Position numbers and translations under genes: made by a program. From a virus, in the IMG/VR virus record IMGVR_UViG_3300043469_000360, positions 1-48,903 of that record: DNA of 48,903 nt. One strand, 5' to 3'. The notes below the pieces were generated by a model. The model was not told where the DNA came from. It ran no database searches and worked only from the letters and a program-made list of their open reading frames with translations. Positions 35,283-42,115 of this stretch are shown piece after piece (positions within the stretch are counted from its first letter, which is position 1; every line of letters starts with the position of its first letter).

Positions 35283-35497
35283 TGCTTGCTCCTCGCTTCA
35301 AGTATTTTCATCGCTTCGTTGTGTCGCAGATAAGCGAACTGGTAGGCCATATTGTGAGCGCTTGTCGGGTGGGGATACCTACGTGCCAAACGTGCATAAT
35401 GTTCTGCTTCTCTGCGTAGCTGAGCCTCATCCATGTCGTACAAGTCATCAACCCACAACTCGTTATCGTCCATGAACTCGTCATCAAGCACTCTCAT
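35279..35497 (-). CDS. Hypothetical acidic protein
   Basis: 72 residues from the ATG at 35497 (an earlier Met at 35536 is inside the previous gene). Negatively charged at the N-terminus (D-D-E-F-M-D-D-N-E), then helical (R-R-E-A-E-H-Y-A-R-L-A-R-R). No domain recognised. Confidence 0.55.
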   Translation of the reverse strand: MRVLDDEFMDDNELWVDDLYDMDEAQLRREAEHYARLARRYPHPTSAHNMAYQFAYLRHNEAMKILEARSKQ

Positions 35498-35924
35498 CAC
35501 CACCCATAATCGTGAACCAGTCAGGCTTATCAGCATGCGCCTGCAACTGCCTACCTAACAAAATTAGGTTAGTTCCAAGCGCCTCCAACACCATCCCCTG
35601 CTTGCGAACATCCTCCGATAAGCGAGTCTTATCAAGACGCGCAAAATCGGACAGTTTTGGCGCAATTTTGTCTACCCAGCGCACCCACCCTTCTTTAGGT
35701 GTGTCACCGTGCAGCCGGATAACCTGCTCATCCAAAACGTCAGGCTTAGCAAAGTAATACAGTGTCGGATAACCCTCCAACTTGCTAATACGGGTGTCCT
35801 GCTCAACAACTTTCTTCACAGTGTTGTATGAGACACCAGACCTGAAGGCGATGTTGGTGATGTTTAACGGTGTGTTAGCTATCGCCAGCGTAAACAGCAC
35901 CAGGGTGTCTTTAGACTTGTTCAC
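35484..35924 (-). CDS. Winged-helix/HTH-like protein
   Basis: 146 residues. The N-terminal ~55 residues ('N-I-T-N-I-A-F-R-S-G-V-S-Y-N-T-V-K-K-V-V') fit a helix-turn-helix, followed by a wing-like 'L-E-G-Y-P-T-L-Y-Y-F'. The remainder is helical and may form a dimer interface. A transcription regulator of early genes is a fair guess. Its start overlaps the next upstream stop (ATGA). Confidence 0.5.
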   Translation of the reverse strand: MNKSKDTLVLFTLAIANTPLNITNIAFRSGVSYNTVKKVVEQDTRISKLEGYPTLYYFAKPDVLDEQVIRLHGDTPKEGWVRWVDKIAPKLSDFARLDKTRLSEDVRKQGMVLEALGTNLILLGRQLQAHADKPDWFTIMGGDESA

Positions 35925-37441: not shown

Positions 37442-38124
37442 CACGCCACCACCTTCGCACGTTCGCAATACCAGCACTGGTCAGGGTGGTGACCTTCACC
37501 ACTGTTGTAGTGTGCATCCCACGTCGATGACTTTTCGCGCACCAGCTTGATGAGCGCCTCGTCACTGTCGAGATTTTGCCACCCGTCGTACAGGCTGTAA
37601 TAGATGTCGTGCTCGGACATGACCTCCCACAGCACAAGCACCTCCAACCCGTTGTCGGTTGCAAAAGCTTCTACGTAACTATTCTCAGCCTCACCTAGCA
37701 GCTCCATGTAATCACCCTCGTCATACAGGTAGTTGTTGTGCTCCAGGTCGTGAGCAATCTCAATTGCTTCACAGAACGCGGGAGTGATGTGACCCTTGTC
37801 GTTGACCACGCGCACCTTCACGGCACAGAACCTGCTGTAGGTCCAGTGTCCAAAGCTGGCGTCGTCAACGTCATCAGGGTAGGCGTCCTTCAGTGCCTTC
37901 AGAATTGTCCGGTAGTTGGACCAGTCTGCAAGGTAATCGTCAGTCAGCTCGATGTCGGGAGTAGAGAACATCATGGTGTGTGTTTTCCACAGGTCACCAT
38001 CGCTCCAGGCACTATCTGCTGGGTGCTCCAGTGCCTCATGAGCACGCTCCAGAATCGTGTCGTAATCAGTGGACATTGCACCCGTAAACAGTTTGGGTTC
38101 AAAGTCCTTCAGTTTCAGTTTCAT
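37441..38124 (-). CDS. Hypothetical protein with zinc-type Cys pair
   Basis: 227 residues from the ATG at 38124. The decamer GAAAGTGAGC sits 6 nt upstream of this ATG; an in-frame ATG at 38142 would place it inside the gene, so 38124 is preferred. Rich in Asp/Glu/Tyr, it ends with 'P-D-Q-C-W-Y-C-E-R' (C-x-x-C). No domain recognised. Confidence 0.55.
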   Translation of the reverse strand: MKLKLKDFEPKLFTGAMSTDYDTILERAHEALEHPADSAWSDGDLWKTHTMMFSTPDIELTDDYLADWSNYRTILKALKDAYPDDVDDASFGHWTYSRFCAVKVRVVNDKGHITPAFCEAIEIAHDLEHNNYLYDEGDYMELLGEAENSYVEAFATDNGLEVLVLWEVMSEHDIYYSLYDGWQNLDSDEALIKLVREKSSTWDAHYNSGEGHHPDQCWYCERAKVVA

Positions 38125-38142
38125 TGTGTAGCTCACTTTCAT

Positions 38143-38510
38143 ATCAACCGGCGAGACGGTCTCGCGCGATACCCCTATTAAATCACACACTTAGCGTCTT
38201 TGCAATTTTAGTTTGCAAACACGTGGGCGTGTCTCAGCAACAGCAAGGGATACAGCTTGCAACTTTAGTTTTCAAACTTGACCTATTAAATTAAGGGGAT
38301 AAGCTCGGTGTTAACGAGCTTATTCCCCTTAATTAAGGGAAGAACATTACGGGAGTCGCCTCACACACTCCGCCCCCAAGGGGCTACGCGTGAGGCTCCA
38401 CACAGCACACAGCTCCGATACCGATGACACCCCGACGACTCAGATAGTCAATACCAATATGAGGGGTTAATCGTTTCGCGTCAGTGCCGGCTGGAGCAAG
38501 CTAGCAGTTG
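38143..38510 (-). other. Structured non-coding region, candidate leader RNA or replication origin
   Basis: No gene is supported in this 370-nt stretch. It holds: a GCGAGAC/GTCTCGC dyad at 38151-38165; two near-identical 21-nt AT-rich repeats (TTGCAAyTTTAGTTTkCAAAC, about 38200-38220 and 38258-38278); a strong hairpin with about 17-bp arms (38287-38338); and a compound hairpin around 38351-38399 (CCTCAC/GTGAGG outer, GCCCC/GGGGC inner). On the minus strand it would be the 5' leader of the gene at 38124. Iteron-like repeats beside a big hairpin also fit an origin. See findings. Confidence 0.55.
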
Positions 38511-38511
38511 T

Positions 38512-38527
38512 TCCATTTGATTCCAGG
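38512..38527 (-). repeat. 16-bp box, copy 1
   Basis: TCCATTTGATTCCAGG on the plus strand; identical copies at 39302-39317 and 39727-39742, and a 9-bp partial at 40442-40450. It lies just after a terminator and before the next transcription unit. Confidence 0.85.
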
Positions 38528-38535
38528 TGACGACA

Positions 38536-38566
38536 AAAGAAAACCCCCCACCCGAAGGTGAGGGGT
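38536..38566 (-). terminator. Terminator after the 113-aa gene
   Basis: On the minus strand a AACCCC...CACC / GGTG...GGGGTT stem with a TTCG loop is followed by TTTTCTTTTG. It ends the two-gene unit 39215-38587. Confidence 0.88.
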
Positions 38567-38586
38567 TCTCAGTTTGTGGTTAGTTG

Positions 38587-38928
38587 CTAGTTGACCTCCA
38601 TTAGGCAGTCATTGGCGCAGTCCCAGATGGCCTGCTGGTGCCGGTGTCTAGCAGCTCGAAGCGCGTCATCTAATTCGGGGTAATGTCCCGTGGAGTCGAC
38701 GAACACACGACCCGACGATGAAGTCCAGATACCCACGTAATGCACACGCTGGTCCTGAATCATGGCCTGAATGAGTTTGCCGACGTAGGTGGGGTCTGGT
38801 GCGACAATGTTAGTCGACGCTACCCAGTACCCCGTAGAGCGCTTCATGGCAGGGACCAGTTTGGTCCTGCTGAAGTCGACGCGATACGTGCCGTCAACCA
38901 GCTCCAGGGTGTCGCTAATCGCAAACAT
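38587..38928 (-). CDS. Hypothetical early protein
   Basis: 113 residues. 'G-Y-W-V-A-S-T-N' and 'H-Y-V-G-I-W-T-S-S-S-G-R-V-F-V-D-S' suggest a small alpha/beta fold. The ATG overlaps the preceding TGA (TGATG). Ends just before a terminator. Function unknown. Confidence 0.6.
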   Translation of the reverse strand: MFAISDTLELVDGTYRVDFSRTKLVPAMKRSTGYWVASTNIVAPDPTYVGKLIQAMIQDQRVHYVGIWTSSSGRVFVDSTGHYPELDDALRAARHRHQQAIWDCANDCLMEVN

Positions 38929-39215
38929 CAGCGGGCTCCCTCAGCGACGATGGCGTGCCAAGCGCCACGGTCAACCTCGTCCAGCATGACCTCAAGGCGT
39001 CCACGGTAATCGGCAAGGTGAGCCAGGTCACCAGTCTGAATGAAGGTGTCAAGGAAGCGAATAAGCGCTTCAGTGTCGCGCACAGCCTGTCCACGTTTCT
39101 CATCGACATAGTGGCTGGTAGCCAGTCCGTCAACGACGTGTTGGCCAGTGTGGAAGGCGAACTGTGTGGCCCAGTTGGTGCCACGTACCAGCTCGGTAGT
39201 AGTTGTGGTGCTCAT
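38928..39215 (-). CDS. Hypothetical early protein
   Basis: 95 residues, helical ('L-I-R-F-L-D-T-F-I-Q-T-G-D-L-A-H'). It heads a two-gene unit with its own promoter (TACTAT), a 5' hairpin and a terminator. The leader differs from its neighbours: GAAACGGAG instead of GAAAGTGAGC before the ATG. Confidence 0.6.
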   Translation of the reverse strand: MSTTTTTELVRGTNWATQFAFHTGQHVVDGLATSHYVDEKRGQAVRDTEALIRFLDTFIQTGDLAHLADYRGRLEVMLDEVDRGAWHAIVAEGAR

Positions 39216-39232
39216 GGTGTAACTCCGTTTCT

Positions 39233-39317
39233 GTCGGAACCGCTCCGACTACGTCCATAGTACCACACAGCTAGCGTACTAGCGTGCAAGCATACAGTTC
39301 GTCCATTTGATTCCAGG
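39233..39317 (-). promoter_or_regulatory. Box, promoter and 5' hairpin of unit 39215-38587
   Basis: From upstream to downstream on the minus strand: 16-bp box (39317-39302), a TAGTACGCTA stretch, -10 TACTAT (39262-39257), and a hairpin GTCGGA/TCCGAC (39249-39233) beginning 7 nt after the -10, so at or next to +1. Box to -10 is 38 nt counted after TCAAATGGAC. No consensus -35. Confidence 0.65.
39302..39317 (-). repeat. 16-bp box, copy 2
   Basis: Identical to copies at 38512 and 39727. Confidence 0.85.
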
Positions 39318-39324
39318 AGATTTT

Positions 39325-39363
39325 AAAAAAAAGAGAGGCTCCCTTTCGGGGGCCTCTCTTTTT
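39325..39363 (-). terminator. Terminator after the 53-aa gene
   Basis: On the minus strand AGAGAGGC...GCCTCTCT with a GAAA-containing loop and eight T following. It ends the unit 39642-39371. Confidence 0.9.
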
Positions 39364-39370
39364 GGTGATG

Positions 39371-39532
39371 CTAGGGCTTAAACCCTACTGACTGCCAATA
39401 GTCAGCCACTGCTTGACTAGCTTGCTCATTCACAGTCTGTAGCGCCACATGCTCACTAGCGGGCTTAGGGGCCGGGTGACAAGTGCAAGTGCACCCATCA
39501 CAACGGTGGTGGAATCCGGTGTTGCAGCTCAT
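39371..39532 (-). CDS. 53-residue Cys/His-rich protein
   Basis: 53 residues with 'H-H-R-C-D-G-C-T-C-T-C-H' (11-19), a metal-binding cluster, and an Ala/Gln-rich C-terminal helix. It starts in the TGATG overlap of the previous gene. Function unknown. Confidence 0.6.
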   Translation of the reverse strand: MSCNTGFHHRCDGCTCTCHPAPKPASEHVALQTVNEQASQAVADYWQSVGFKP

Positions 39533-39642
39533 CAGTAACCCGCTTTCGTCAGGATGGATAGAACAGTAGCAACCTGCTCATCAGTCAACGCGTCAACCGC
39601 ATCGCCGTTGATGATGTCAGGGTTATCGAATGGATTAGACAT
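39532..39642 (-). CDS. 36-residue small protein
   Basis: 36 residues, 'M-S-N-P-F-D-N-P-D-I-I-N-G' then a UBA-like or small helical end 'L-T-D-E-Q-V-A-T-V-L-S-I-L'. GAAAGTGAGC is 3 nt upstream of the ATG. Real by leader, spacing and coupling to the next gene. Confidence 0.58.
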   Translation of the reverse strand: MSNPFDNPDIINGDAVDALTDEQVATVLSILTKAGY

Positions 39643-39655
39643 GGTGCTCACTTTC

Positions 39656-39742
39656 GGCCAGGACCGTCCCGGCATGCACTAACTATACCACGGTGTTAGC
39701 GTCCAAGCCAGCAGGCAACTAGTATGTCCATTTGATTCCAGG
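39656..39742 (-). promoter_or_regulatory. Box, promoter and 5' hairpin of unit 39642-39371
   Basis: Box 39742-39727; -10 TATAGT (39687-39682) again 38 nt after TCAAATGGAC; hairpin (GCC-GGAC/GTCC-GGC, 39673-39656) 8 nt after the -10; then GAAAGTGAGC at 39655-39646. Same order as the other two units. Confidence 0.65.
39727..39742 (-). repeat. 16-bp box, copy 3
   Basis: Identical to copies at 38512 and 39302. Confidence 0.85.
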
Positions 39743-39755
39743 GGATTCGGGCACG

Positions 39756-39788
39756 AAAAAACCCCCGACCCTTGCGGGCCGGGGGCTT
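39756..39788 (-). terminator. Terminator after the 178-aa gene
   Basis: On the minus strand a stem CCCCCG...CCC / GGG...CGGGGG around GCAA is followed by TTTTTT. It ends the single-gene unit 40337-39801. Confidence 0.9.
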
Positions 39789-39800
39789 CTCCGTCAGTGC

Positions 39801-40337
39801 TTAGTTGACCTCTACCTCCGTCTCATCAGCGCTGTCCCGGTCCAGTCTGTTGTCCTCCAAGAAGGCTTCAACGATGGCGTCATCGCGCTCACTCCCCGTC
39901 AGACCCCCGTCAATCTCAAGGTCAGAGAAATAGAACTTGAGAGTGATGCACCCGTCGACCTTCTCGACACGGTAGTCGGGCAGACCATCGATGGCGTCTA
40001 TGAACAAGCCCCAGGTCTCGTTGCGCTCAATGTCACCATCGAGAGCATCCCACAACTTACGCCACAGGTTCTCAATGCGGTAGTCACCACCATCAGTGAT
40101 GTGGCGTTCTGCCTTGTTACGAAGCATGTAGCTGTAGGCGAATGAGTGCCACACCTCATCCATGGCGTGGTCACCACGACGAAGCAGGTCTTCGGCAAGT
40201 GCCAGTTCGTGCGTCAGCTCGTTGTTGTTTGAACGGTTGTAGCACTTGTCACAGCGGATGCTGTAGCTGTTAGGTATCTCAACGCCACAGTCCTTGCAGT
40301 GGCGGGTATCGCGGGTAGTGATGTCAGTGTTACTCAT
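39801..40337 (-). CDS. Zinc-ribbon early protein
   Basis: 178 residues from the ATG at 40337. A zinc ribbon lies at the N-terminus (C-K-D-C and C-D-K-C), followed by a helical part (L-A-E-D-L-L-R-R-G) and a beta part. GAAAGTGAGC is 9 nt upstream; the in-frame ATG AAA GTG AGC earlier is read as leader. Being the first gene of the minus arm with its own promoter, it is a candidate immediate-early takeover protein. Confidence 0.6.
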   Translation of the reverse strand: MSNTDITTRDTRHCKDCGVEIPNSYSIRCDKCYNRSNNNELTHELALAEDLLRRGDHAMDEVWHSFAYSYMLRNKAERHITDGGDYRIENLWRKLWDALDGDIERNETWGLFIDAIDGLPDYRVEKVDGCITLKFYFSDLEIDGGLTGSERDDAIVEAFLEDNRLDRDSADETEVEVN

Positions 40338-40368
40338 GATGATGATGCTCACTTTCATTTCAGTTACA

Positions 40369-40450
40369 GCCCTCACCGCGAGGGCATAGCACCCACTATA
40401 GCGTACCTCTAGAGATGATGTTGTATCAGGACACGCATACTTCCATTTGA
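40369..40450 (-). promoter_or_regulatory. Partial box, promoter and 5' hairpin of the 178-aa gene
   Basis: A 9-bp partial box (40450-40442) with TCAAATGGA; -10 TATAGT (40400-40395) 40 nt after; hairpin GCCCTC/GAGGGC (40385-40369) 9 nt after the -10. TACGCTA overlaps the -10 at 40405-40399. This is the divergent partner of the plus-strand promoter at 40496. Confidence 0.6.
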
Positions 40451-40495
40451 CCCATGTTTCATGCTTCGAGTTTTCTGGCACTGTAGACGCTAAGG

Positions 40496-40502
40496 TACGC
40501 TA
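40496..40502 (+). promoter_or_regulatory. Promoter -10 (TACGCTA) for the plus arm
   Basis: TACGCTA 25 nt before the ATG at 40527. A TAGACGCTA-like motif is also just upstream. It starts the plus-strand arm opposite the early promoter. Confidence 0.5.
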
Positions 40503-40526
40503 TGCGGATTGGGGGTTTGTGTTGTT

Positions 40527-41426
40527 ATGATTGTGTTTATGGTTCGCCCGCCTTCTGTTGTTCAGCCTCTGAGGAGGCAGCCTAGGCCTACCCCTAGTTT
40601 CTTGGAACCGACAGCTCCTGGGCGTTTGGATTCGTTTGTGGAGTCTTATTCGCGTTCGGCTCCGCAGGTGTATCAGGCGCAGGCCGCTAATAACATTTTT
40701 AACCCGTTTCCTTCAATCGCCCAAGCGGGTGTTGAGGGGCGTATGCCTACTGGTGCTGAGGTGGGTACGGATGCTGGGTTTTTGGCGGCAGGTTTTTTGC
40801 CTGTGGGTAAAGCGGCAAGCCAGTTGGCGGCGATTGTTAACCGTTTGAATAAGTCGACGGATGTTGGCGATTTTATGACGCCTGAGAAAATGCGGTACGC
40901 CTCAAGAGCTAATGATGCGTTTGAGGGGTTGTATAGGCCGGGGGCGCAAAGTTTTGATTACAATAATGTGCCACAGCCGGCTTCAGAGTATTTGTTTGGT
41001 TTGGTTCCGACAGAGAAGTTGTCGCCGTTGCGTGAGTTTGACCGGGCGGCAGAGCTAGAAGGTTTGGGGCGCACGGGACCAGATAATCTTAAGAAACTTG
41101 CAGAGCACATGGCTAAAGGTGGCAAATGGAGCGACCCTACAGCTGTTGGGTATTACCCAGACCAAGAGTGGGCTTATTTGGCTGAGGGTAATCATAGGTT
41201 GGCTTTGGCGGAGGCTTTGGGGTTGGAGCAGTTGCCTACAACATTGTGGCGAAAGCAATTCTACGATTATCCCCCACCAAACAAATTGCCTGTGGGCAAA
41301 CGTGTTGGGCCTTTGGACACGAACCAGTTAGCTCGTCACCAATTTTCTGATTTTCCCGACAGCGTAGGTAATTTTTATGTTCCGCCGGACATGCACCCGT
41401 ATCTTCTTAAATATTTTCAGCCATAA
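40527..41426 (+). CDS. ParB/sulfiredoxin-fold-like protein with virion-type N-terminus
   Basis: 299 residues from ATG 40527 (GGGGG about 12 nt upstream; TTG 40509 and ATG 40539 are alternatives). The N-terminal half is Pro/Arg/Ala-rich with a hydrophobic stretch 'A-G-F-L-A-A-G-F-L-P-V-G' and resembles the starts of ejected proteins. The C-terminal half has 'L-K-K-L-A-E-H-M-A...W-A-Y-L-A-E-G-N-H-R-L-A-L-A-E-A-L-G' (G-N-H-R), the ParB-N motif. It might nick DNA or bind CTP. No neighbour ParA. Confidence 0.5.
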   Translation: MIVFMVRPPSVVQPLRRQPRPTPSFLEPTAPGRLDSFVESYSRSAPQVYQAQAANNIFNPFPSIAQAGVEGRMPTGAEVGTDAGFLAAGFLPVGKAASQLAAIVNRLNKSTDVGDFMTPEKMRYASRANDAFEGLYRPGAQSFDYNNVPQPASEYLFGLVPTEKLSPLREFDRAAELEGLGRTGPDNLKKLAEHMAKGGKWSDPTAVGYYPDQEWAYLAEGNHRLALAEALGLEQLPTTLWRKQFYDYPPPNKLPVGKRVGPLDTNQLARHQFSDFPDSVGNFYVPPDMHPYLLKYFQP

Positions 41427-41447
41427 CAAATAACGCTAATGTTGTGC

Positions 41448-41454
41448 TACGCTA
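41448..41454 (+). promoter_or_regulatory. Promoter -10 (TACGCTA) before the HTH regulator
   Basis: TACGCTA 27 nt before the GTG at 41481; AACGCTA is a weaker copy 17 nt upstream. AAGGAG follows at about 41470. Confidence 0.5.
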
Positions 41455-41480
41455 TCTCCCAATAGGACTAAGGAGACATA

Positions 41481-42008
41481 GTGGACAAAAACCCGTACAT
41501 AAGATTGCGTGAACTGTGTGGCTCATCCCAAAAGGGATTTGCAGCTAAGCATGGTTTTGGCAAGATGACGATGGTGTATTTGGAGTCGGGTATGTACACC
41601 CGTGTTTCCGATAGGCAGAGTATTGCGTTGGGTACGGAGTGCCATGAGAAGGGTGTTGAGGCGCGTGAAATTTTGCGTGAAGAGTTTAATGCTGCTTCTC
41701 TTAATGAGGCTTATTTGGCTTGGCGGAGCGAGGACCGTAAACTCCGCGCCCCAGCCGTTCTTGCAAAGGCTTCGCCACCTTTTGTCGGTGATGCCGATGT
41801 TTCGCCGGTTGCCCAGTTTGTGAAAGATACTGCGGGTTCGTTGCAGGGTTTCTGCAAGCTTCTAAAAGTTCCTTCGATTACGATGACACGCTACATTCGC
41901 GGTGAAACAATTACCGTGCCTGATGCGTTTGTGTCGGCGTTGGAGGATGTGAAGTACCCACACACGGGTGCTTTGATTGATGCACAAGCGAATTGGATTG
42001 GTGCTTGA
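41481..42008 (+). CDS. Double helix-turn-helix regulator
   Basis: 175 residues from a GTG with AAGGAG 8 nt upstream. Two HTH-like units: 'I-R-L-R-E-L-C-G-S-S-Q-K-G-F-A-A-K' (about 7-40) and 'L-Q-G-F-C-K-L-L-K-V-P-S-I-T-M-T-R-Y-I' (about 120-150). Likely represses or activates phage promoters (candidate for binding the 16-bp box, not shown). The stop overlaps the next ATG. Confidence 0.62.
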   Translation: MDKNPYIRLRELCGSSQKGFAAKHGFGKMTMVYLESGMYTRVSDRQSIALGTECHEKGVEAREILREEFNAASLNEAYLAWRSEDRKLRAPAVLAKASPPFVGDADVSPVAQFVKDTAGSLQGFCKLLKVPSITMTRYIRGETITVPDAFVSALEDVKYPHTGALIDAQANWIGA

Positions 42009-42115
42009 TGATTGGGACATTGTTGGGAATGTTGGCCGTGTATGTTGTGGGCGCTTTGATTTTGATGTTGGTGGGTGCCTCGATTCAATACGACAAGAAA
42101 GGCAAGGTAAAATAA
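42008..42115 (+). CDS. 35-residue single-span membrane protein
   Basis: 35 residues: hydrophobic helix 'G-T-L-L-G-M-L-A-V-Y-V-V-G-A-L-I-L' then 'Y-D-K-K-G-K-V-K'. Its ATG overlaps the HTH gene's TGA and its stop (TAA) overlaps the next ATG in TAATG, so it is placed by coupling on both sides. A longer frame from 41977 runs through 42231 but in a different frame from these starts. Confidence 0.6.
   Translation: MIGTLLGMLAVYVVGALILMLVGASIQYDKKGKVK

Follow-up and report, generated by a model that had tools for sequence, protein, structure and literature searches.

Positions 1-48,903 of the viral record IMGVR_UViG_3300043469_000360 (IMG/VR) form the window analysed here, 48,903 nucleotides (nt) whose numbering is used throughout, and at 37.4-40.5 kb its minus strand holds the first early units of a leftward replication operon. 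Ahead of these units stand repeated control cassettes built around a 16-bp asymmetric box, TCCATTTGATTCCAGG, and we find that they are a real control system, hitherto undescribed, that extends across a phage family; its conservation marks the box as a selected element of that family. We tentatively propose that the box regulates the early leftward promoters of a Shocker-like family from an upstream position, that it is read by a protein with two XRE-type helix-turn-helix (HTH) domains, encoded at 41481, and that the transcripts would start at a 5' hairpin. Taken with all its parts, the explanation that the cassettes are early leftward promoters of an actinobacterial phage family related to Microbacterium phage Shocker is given somewhat less than an even chance of being correct. 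In a cassette the box, in a single orientation, usually lies behind the terminator of the preceding unit and upstream of candidate promoters, and a -10-like hexamer, in most leaders a hairpin, a Shine-Dalgarno-like sequence and the start codon follow in that order. The elements in the window are as follows.

40442..40452, minus strand: divergent, partial box copy GGTCAAATGGA of the first leftward promoter; L077 and Shocker have the same form with TACAACATSATT downstream.
40395..40400, minus strand: -10-like TATAGT, 40 nt after TCAAATGGA[C/A].
40369..40385, minus strand: 5' hairpin GCCCTCGCGGTGAGGGC, starting 9 nt after the -10 (fold -11.5 kcal/mol, z -2.1).
40347..40356, minus strand: decamer GAAAGTGAGC, 9 nt before the ATG at 40337; probable Shine-Dalgarno region that may be coding.
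39756..39789 (approximate), minus strand: intrinsic terminator of the 40337 unit (fold -28.4 kcal/mol, z -4.5).
39727..39742, minus strand: box copy CCTGGAATCAAATGGA, exact match.
39682..39687, minus strand: -10-like TATAGT, 38 nt after TCAAATGGA[C/A].
39657..39673, minus strand: 5' hairpin GCCGGGACGGTCCTGGC, starting 8 nt after the -10 (fold -10.8 kcal/mol, z -2.0).
39646..39655, minus strand: decamer GAAAGTGAGC, 3 nt before the ATG at 39642.
39325..39362 (approximate), minus strand: intrinsic terminator of the 39642 unit (fold -23.1 kcal/mol, z -4.0).
39302..39317, minus strand: box copy CCTGGAATCAAATGGA, exact match.
39257..39262, minus strand: -10-like TACTAT, 38 nt after TCAAATGGA[C/A].
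39233..39249, minus strand: 5' hairpin GTCGGAGCGGTTCCGAC, starting 7 nt after the -10 (fold -9.0 kcal/mol, z -3.5).
38536..38570 (approximate), minus strand: intrinsic terminator of the 39215 unit (fold -26.0 kcal/mol, z -5.2).
38512..38527, minus strand: orphan box copy, exact; neither usual distance has a -10, and no gene follows within ~390 nt; relatives have similar orphans.
38151..38165, minus strand: hairpin GCGAGACCGTCTCGC in the promoter of gene 38124, ~9 nt after TAATAG (38180-38175) and without an adjacent box, as read from the sequence.
38131..38140, minus strand: decamer GAAAGTGAGC, 6 nt before the ATG at 38124.

The initial annotation of this DNA had placed exact copies of the box at 39302, 39727 and 38512 and a partial one at 40442, and all four were recovered. 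Three exact 16-mers within 48.9 kb are well above chance, and the four window matches obtained at no more than three mismatches are a number that none of 100 dinucleotide shuffles reached. The box is asymmetric, TGGAAWCAARTGGAC, frequently extended by NAACTGNCTGCYTGC, and its layout is TGGA-N6-TGGA, i.e. two half-sites 10 bp, or one helical turn, apart. Its linkage to the regulator was tested on relatives fetched solely through homology to the 41481 double-HTH protein, and thus blind to the box; 20 relatives with the HTH gene were scanned besides the window, and 18 of them had at least 1.5 kb of flank on the early side. All 18 of these informative phages carried the box together with the double-HTH gene, in one to four copies within that flank, nearly always oriented with early transcription; no copy was found on the opposite strand of the same flank, and copies were rare on the downstream flank. 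Per phage there are 2-5 copies, nearly all just ahead of early promoters. The family pattern is nGGAnnCAARTGGA, with one variant CACRTGGA, and the forms met include GGAATCAAATGGA, GGAAACAAGTGGA, GGAATCAAGTGGA and GGACTCAAGTGGA. One relative, L101, was rejected as an exception to the linkage, as it carries GGACTCAC[AG]TGGA at two places (variant GGACTCACRTGGA). The search of related phages that the initial annotation had proposed as a check thus found the box in 18 of 18 informative relatives and also in the cultured phage Shocker, which has two copies, AGGAATCAAATGGAC and GGTCAAATGGA, at places matching the window. This conservation is deep, as the counterpart of 41481 in Shocker shares no more than 32% identity with it.

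At the divergent position, GGTCAAATGGA is followed in Shocker by TACAACATGATT, the window counterpart being TACAACATCATC. A further element, TACAACATSATT, lies at ~40418-40427 on the minus strand, 9-17 nt after the divergent box, and is kept through much of the family, in the divergent regions of L067-L083-type relatives and in Shocker; it is a possible operator of the divergent region. Searches cast more widely gave chance-level results: the exact 16-mer had 18 single-copy matches in other viral contigs of IMG/VR, about the number due to chance, the extended box gave only chance-level blastn matches among GenBank phages (Vibrio and Citrobacter phages), and as a candidate host regulon it matched 6 unrelated species among 84,980 genomes, again about chance. 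A search of Rfam gave no match, and literature searches returned no paper on this box.

The distance from box to -10 had been thought fixed. The spacings of 40, 38 and 38 nt stand in the window (39-41 nt for the window group when counted from the end of TGGA), but across the family they range over ~20-68 nt, and as read from these genomes the spacing is fixed within lineages only. In the group of L068, L069, L074 and L078 a -10-like hexamer (TAGATT, CAGACT, CAGAAT or TAACTT) lies 22-23 nt after the box in 9/9 non-divergent coding cassettes; the spacing is 65-66 nt in L067, and 24 and 28 nt in L076. Several copies in the window group have additional TACGCT-type hexamers at 20-28 nt; with a second TANNNT (TACGCT) 5 nt before TATAGT in the 40442 cassette, and TACGCT 23 nt past the box in the 39302 cassette, more than one hexamer could be taken as the -10. 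No sigma-70 -35/-10 pair was matched on the early strand of 37900-42100, which bears out the poor -35 elements reported earlier. Readings as extracytoplasmic function (ECF)-type -35 (GGAA...) and T7-type promoters were dropped by eye, as no constant partner element was seen. A tandem ACGCTAA-N4/5-GTGSTACGCT stands upstream of the double-HTH gene (~41425-41480, plus strand) and in the HTH-gene promoters of L076, L077 and L067, and the leftward promoters of the window group contain comparable ACGCTA...GTGGTANNNT pairs; this element is possibly a core promoter type or an operator.

The hairpins, said to begin 7-9 nt after the -10 in the same place but with different sequences, do so in all three window cassettes. 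Taken alone their folds are modest (z -2.0 to -3.5), and their position was therefore tested on relatives. Over 23 coding cassettes the best leader hairpin had a mean score of 13.39, compared with 10.85 +/- 0.47 in dinucleotide shuffles, and 0 of 300 shuffled sets reached 13.39. When the set was extended to 33 coding cassettes, drawn from 19 phages, 18 had a strong hairpin, and TANNNT lay 6-10 nt upstream of 12 of these 18, against 0.95 expected when the hairpin is shifted along the same leaders, a count that is not one of independent events because the 33 cassettes are mutually related. No TANNNT stood at 0-5 or 11-13 nt upstream of the strong hairpins. Many stems share a GTC...GAC base, and the inner pairs vary. 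Placing the hairpin at the predicted transcript start therefore holds across phages, though it is a common and not an obligatory part, about one third of the cassettes having no clear one. A literature search on 5' stem-loops and RppH in phages found nothing.

Each of the three minus-strand units has the strong terminator that had been assigned to it (fold z -4 to -5). Some hairpins directly upstream of boxes in relatives (L069 4987 and L078 9824; GCACCCTTCGGGGTGC) have no T-run, and termination there may be of another kind or protein-aided. The start-associated decamer fared less well: GAAAGTGAGC occurs exactly three times in the window, at three starts, but does not recur in relatives, which have AGAAAGG(C) there. 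As AGAAAGG can pair with the 3' end that 16S rRNA usually has in Actinobacteria, the conserved GAAAG part resembles a common Shine-Dalgarno element. The GTGAGC of the decamer is in frame with the ATG in 3/3 cases and reads ATGAAAGTGAGC in 2, and the decamer could also be coding.

Two proteins of the window are candidate readers of the box.

41481..42008, plus strand: double-XRE DNA-binding protein, the preferred candidate, with an AlphaFold2 model; beside the box across the family.
35484..35924, minus strand: winged-HTH-like early protein, the second candidate; its family is present in most members.

The model of 41481, with a predicted local distance difference test (pLDDT) score of 94.6, has two HTH domains of five helices each, with a long helix connecting them, and two tandem HTH domains suit the geometry of a TGGA repeat spaced by 10 bp; on this modelled structure, 41481 is probably the reader. 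Its best viral structural match is a Shocker protein of 171 residues, taken from its length to be gp10, with a template modelling (TM) score of 0.90 and 32% identity over the aligned fold, and the next is a protein of Arthrobacter phage GurgleFerb (TM 0.63). In the PDB, Foldseek matched single XRE domains, e.g. SinR and controller proteins. The TipsytheTRex repressor, a single chain whose two DNA-binding domains read an asymmetric site (PMC9283540), was not among the 50 PDB matches listed.

A mechanism can be envisioned in which the phage DNA-binding protein, most likely 41481 from across the divergent region, would read the two 10-bp-spaced TGGA half-sites through its two HTH domains, and the bound protein would more likely raise than lower initiation. 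Host RNA polymerase would initiate at the hairpin base or no more than a few nt away from it, and the 5' hairpin would slow 5'-end-dependent decay and keep the ribosome site open. Activation is favoured because the box lies upstream of -10s that have no good -35, and the single orientation and the lack of any lysogeny genes found point the same way; as to the sign of control, we lean towards activation, not strongly. A more far-reaching version, which we consider unlikely, is that a single XRE protein with two heads recognises an asymmetric tandem site before each early unit and that every responsive mRNA starts with a sequence-variable hairpin, so that initiation and transcript lifetime are jointly controlled, the orphan box driving or protecting a structured non-coding or origin region.

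Several observations weigh against activation by 41481 from a 5'-hairpin promoter. Between the window and L076 there is no difference in the recognition stretches FGKMTMVYLESG and PSITMTRYIRG of 41481, yet the boxes of the two differ at several positions. The spacing differs between lineages over the range given above, and by 4 nt even between the orthologous promoters of L071 and L073, which a rigid activator contact would not allow; the hairpin is absent, weak or unclear in about one third of cassettes. Moreover, 41481 lies in the rightward block, an odd location for an early activator. This late-side position is also consistent with a less likely alternative in which the box is an operator or roadblock, similar to the cluster A stoperators, and the double-XRE protein, made with the rightward genes, shuts early transcription or stops read-through of terminators. 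The main argument for it is that orphan boxes, which precede the conserved non-coding region, are kept without a promoter, and thus a box can persist without one; in addition, most boxes directly follow a terminator as transcription runs, the extended box overlaps -35 to -18 in the 22-23 nt group, and a two-domain monomer is the reader of the stoperators, which are asymmetric and oriented (PMC9283540). However, the divergent box copy has no leftward unit upstream of it, the boxes of the window group, at ~-52 and further upstream, are too distant for a direct block of polymerase binding, and there are just 2-5 copies per phage. The absence of an integrase in the 15 records of the family that were searched also makes a lysogeny repressor less likely.

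It is unlikely, too, though possible, that another protein reads the box, either an activator supplied by the host or 35484, the early winged-HTH protein, whose family appears conserved as well, being present in most members. Shocker and the window have the same box core, even though 41481 retains just ~30% identity between them, as expected for a site imposed by the host; against this, box variants exist (GGACTCAA, GGACTCAC and GGAAACAA), and no box-bearing actinobacterial genome was among the matches to the extended form in 84,980 species. That the hairpins are DNA inverted repeats for a dimeric operator protein, and not RNA structures, recalls the inverted repeats found at promoters in cluster K phages (PMC3203893, PMC11373665), but the arms differ between copies in one phage (GCCCTC, GCCGGG, GTCGGA) while pairing and place persist, so that RNA structure fits better and the idea is quite improbable. 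Short motifs and hairpins are common, and the 18 other viral contigs with one 16-mer each are roughly as many as chance would produce; nevertheless, chance repeats with generic AT/GC structure are ruled out, as near as can be, by the 18/18 linkage, the one-strand bias and the coupling of hairpin and -10 (12 against 0.95).

The region behind the orphan box and the genes of the early units comprise the following.

39801..40337, minus strand: early gene 1 (178 residues), N-terminus CxxC zinc-ribbon-like by eye.
39532..39642, minus strand: early gene 2 (36 residues).
38928..39215, minus strand: early gene 3 (95 residues).
38295..38328, minus strand: hairpin GGGGAATAAGCTC...GAGCTTATCCCC, conserved and non-coding, located behind the orphan box and followed by A/T-rich repeats.

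The conserved non-coding region, at 38130-38530 on the minus strand of the window, is also present in L076, L077, L078, L068, L069, L074 and L079, and comparable last box copies occur in relatives. Its hairpin has the pattern GGGGnTAMGCTCC-TTGAT-GGAGCKTACCCC, with a stem of 12-13 bp and a TTGAT loop, and shows covariation (ACG/CGT, ATG/CAT, AAG/CTT, AAA/TTT); the A/T-rich repeats behind it are of the TTTGAAAAATGGTTTTG type. The region is possibly a replication origin or a non-coding RNA. Early gene 1 gave no relative in tblastn, and protein searches with the early proteins P0001 and P0004 gave none.

The leftward genes encode polymerase, helicases, exonucleases and recombination proteins, and the rightward genes head, tail, terminase and lysis functions. 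The DNA polymerase of the window shares 42-44% identity with its counterparts in Microbacterium phage Shocker, Arthrobacter Jasmine-type phages and Cellulosimicrobium phage DS1, and as much as 91% with those in uncultured IMG/VR phages; among GenBank phages there were no relatives at the nucleotide level, and a polymerase search of 84,980 genomes aimed at showing the host had no match. Since neither a tyrosine nor a serine integrase was found in the 15 family records, the phages are probably lytic. Near-duplicate genes occur at the two contig ends (285-1181 and 42907-43623; 5227-5961 and 46343-47173), 98% and 94% identical as proteins and at different offsets, and the contig is probably longer than one round of a circularly permuted genome of ~42-43 kb, with two related strains joined in it; the ends are thus not to be treated as one genome, and the 38-42 kb region is unaffected. 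In the Shocker record, ~the first 480 and ~the last 480 bases overlap (L063:1-400 / L097:1-480), and its early region has several copies of an additional repeat, CCTGTAAAGG.

Early control in lytic actinobacterial phages is poorly mapped, and the cassettes offer a family-wide cis code with a specific candidate regulator. Shocker (MW507126; host Microbacterium paraoxydans) is a cultured phage for immediate testing; like the window it has the same replication module, the double-XRE family (gp10) and two boxes heading early leftward genes, but by eye its cassettes show neither a T-tract terminator nor a clear 5' hairpin, such hairpins as it has being weak, and the box is unannotated in it. The initial annotation knew of no description of this combination, which is right for this box and for a 5' hairpin tied to the -10, both absent from the start-associated sequences (SAS) and extended start-associated sequences (ESAS) of cluster K, but too strong overall, since these combine similar parts, namely an element repeated at promoters, an inverted repeat and a sequence associated with start codons (PMC3203893, PMC11373665). 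In TM4, Adephagia and ZoeJ, as here, they are repeated intergenic cassettes of the non-structural arm, serving a subset of genes, with the start-associated sequence lying a few nt ahead of the start codon; a survey covers 188 genomes (PMC12699233). However, the 13-bp GGGATAGGAGCCC next to their start codons is not found here, where the window has GAAAGTGAGC and relatives AGAAAGG. ESAS are interpreted as promoters with an inverted repeat (PMC11373665), SigA-like -35/-10 elements being overlapped by conserved imperfect 17-bp inverted repeats whose pairing as mRNA hairpins their authors doubted, whereas here the arms vary, the early strand has no -35/-10 pair, and the conserved part is a separate asymmetric upstream box, the sequence-variable hairpin being tied to the -10.

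The operators and stoperators of cluster A (L5, TipsytheTRex) are likewise short, asymmetric, multi-copy intergenic sites oriented with transcription, and their reader is a phage protein of ~180 residues with two DNA-binding domains, as is hypothetically the case here. They differ in the box itself, in number (more than 20 sites in L5 against 2-5) and in serving immunity in temperate phages, as opposed to a family with no integrase in 15 records. The cluster A repressor monomer combines an HTH with a Stoperator domain; the model of 41481 has two DNA-binding-like domains, both of which look like XRE folds. As the defining features of SAS/ESAS and of stoperators are not all present, the cassettes were assigned to neither and are filed as a variant of repeated phage promoter/operator cassettes. 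In class II-type activator promoters the site keeps a constant distance and either overlaps a poor -35 or lies upstream of it; the corresponding distance here is 22-23 nt in 9/9 cassettes of one group and 20-68 nt family-wide. Finally, 5'-terminal stem-loops of the ompA and ermC type stabilise bacterial mRNAs. As in these, the hairpins described here would lie at or near the first base of the transcript, as predicted from the -10, and upstream of the ribosome site; unlike in these, they appear to be repeated on several phage early transcripts with different sequences, and if the hairpin at +1 is borne out, the phage would be seen to build protection of the mRNA 5' end into a repeated promoter cassette.

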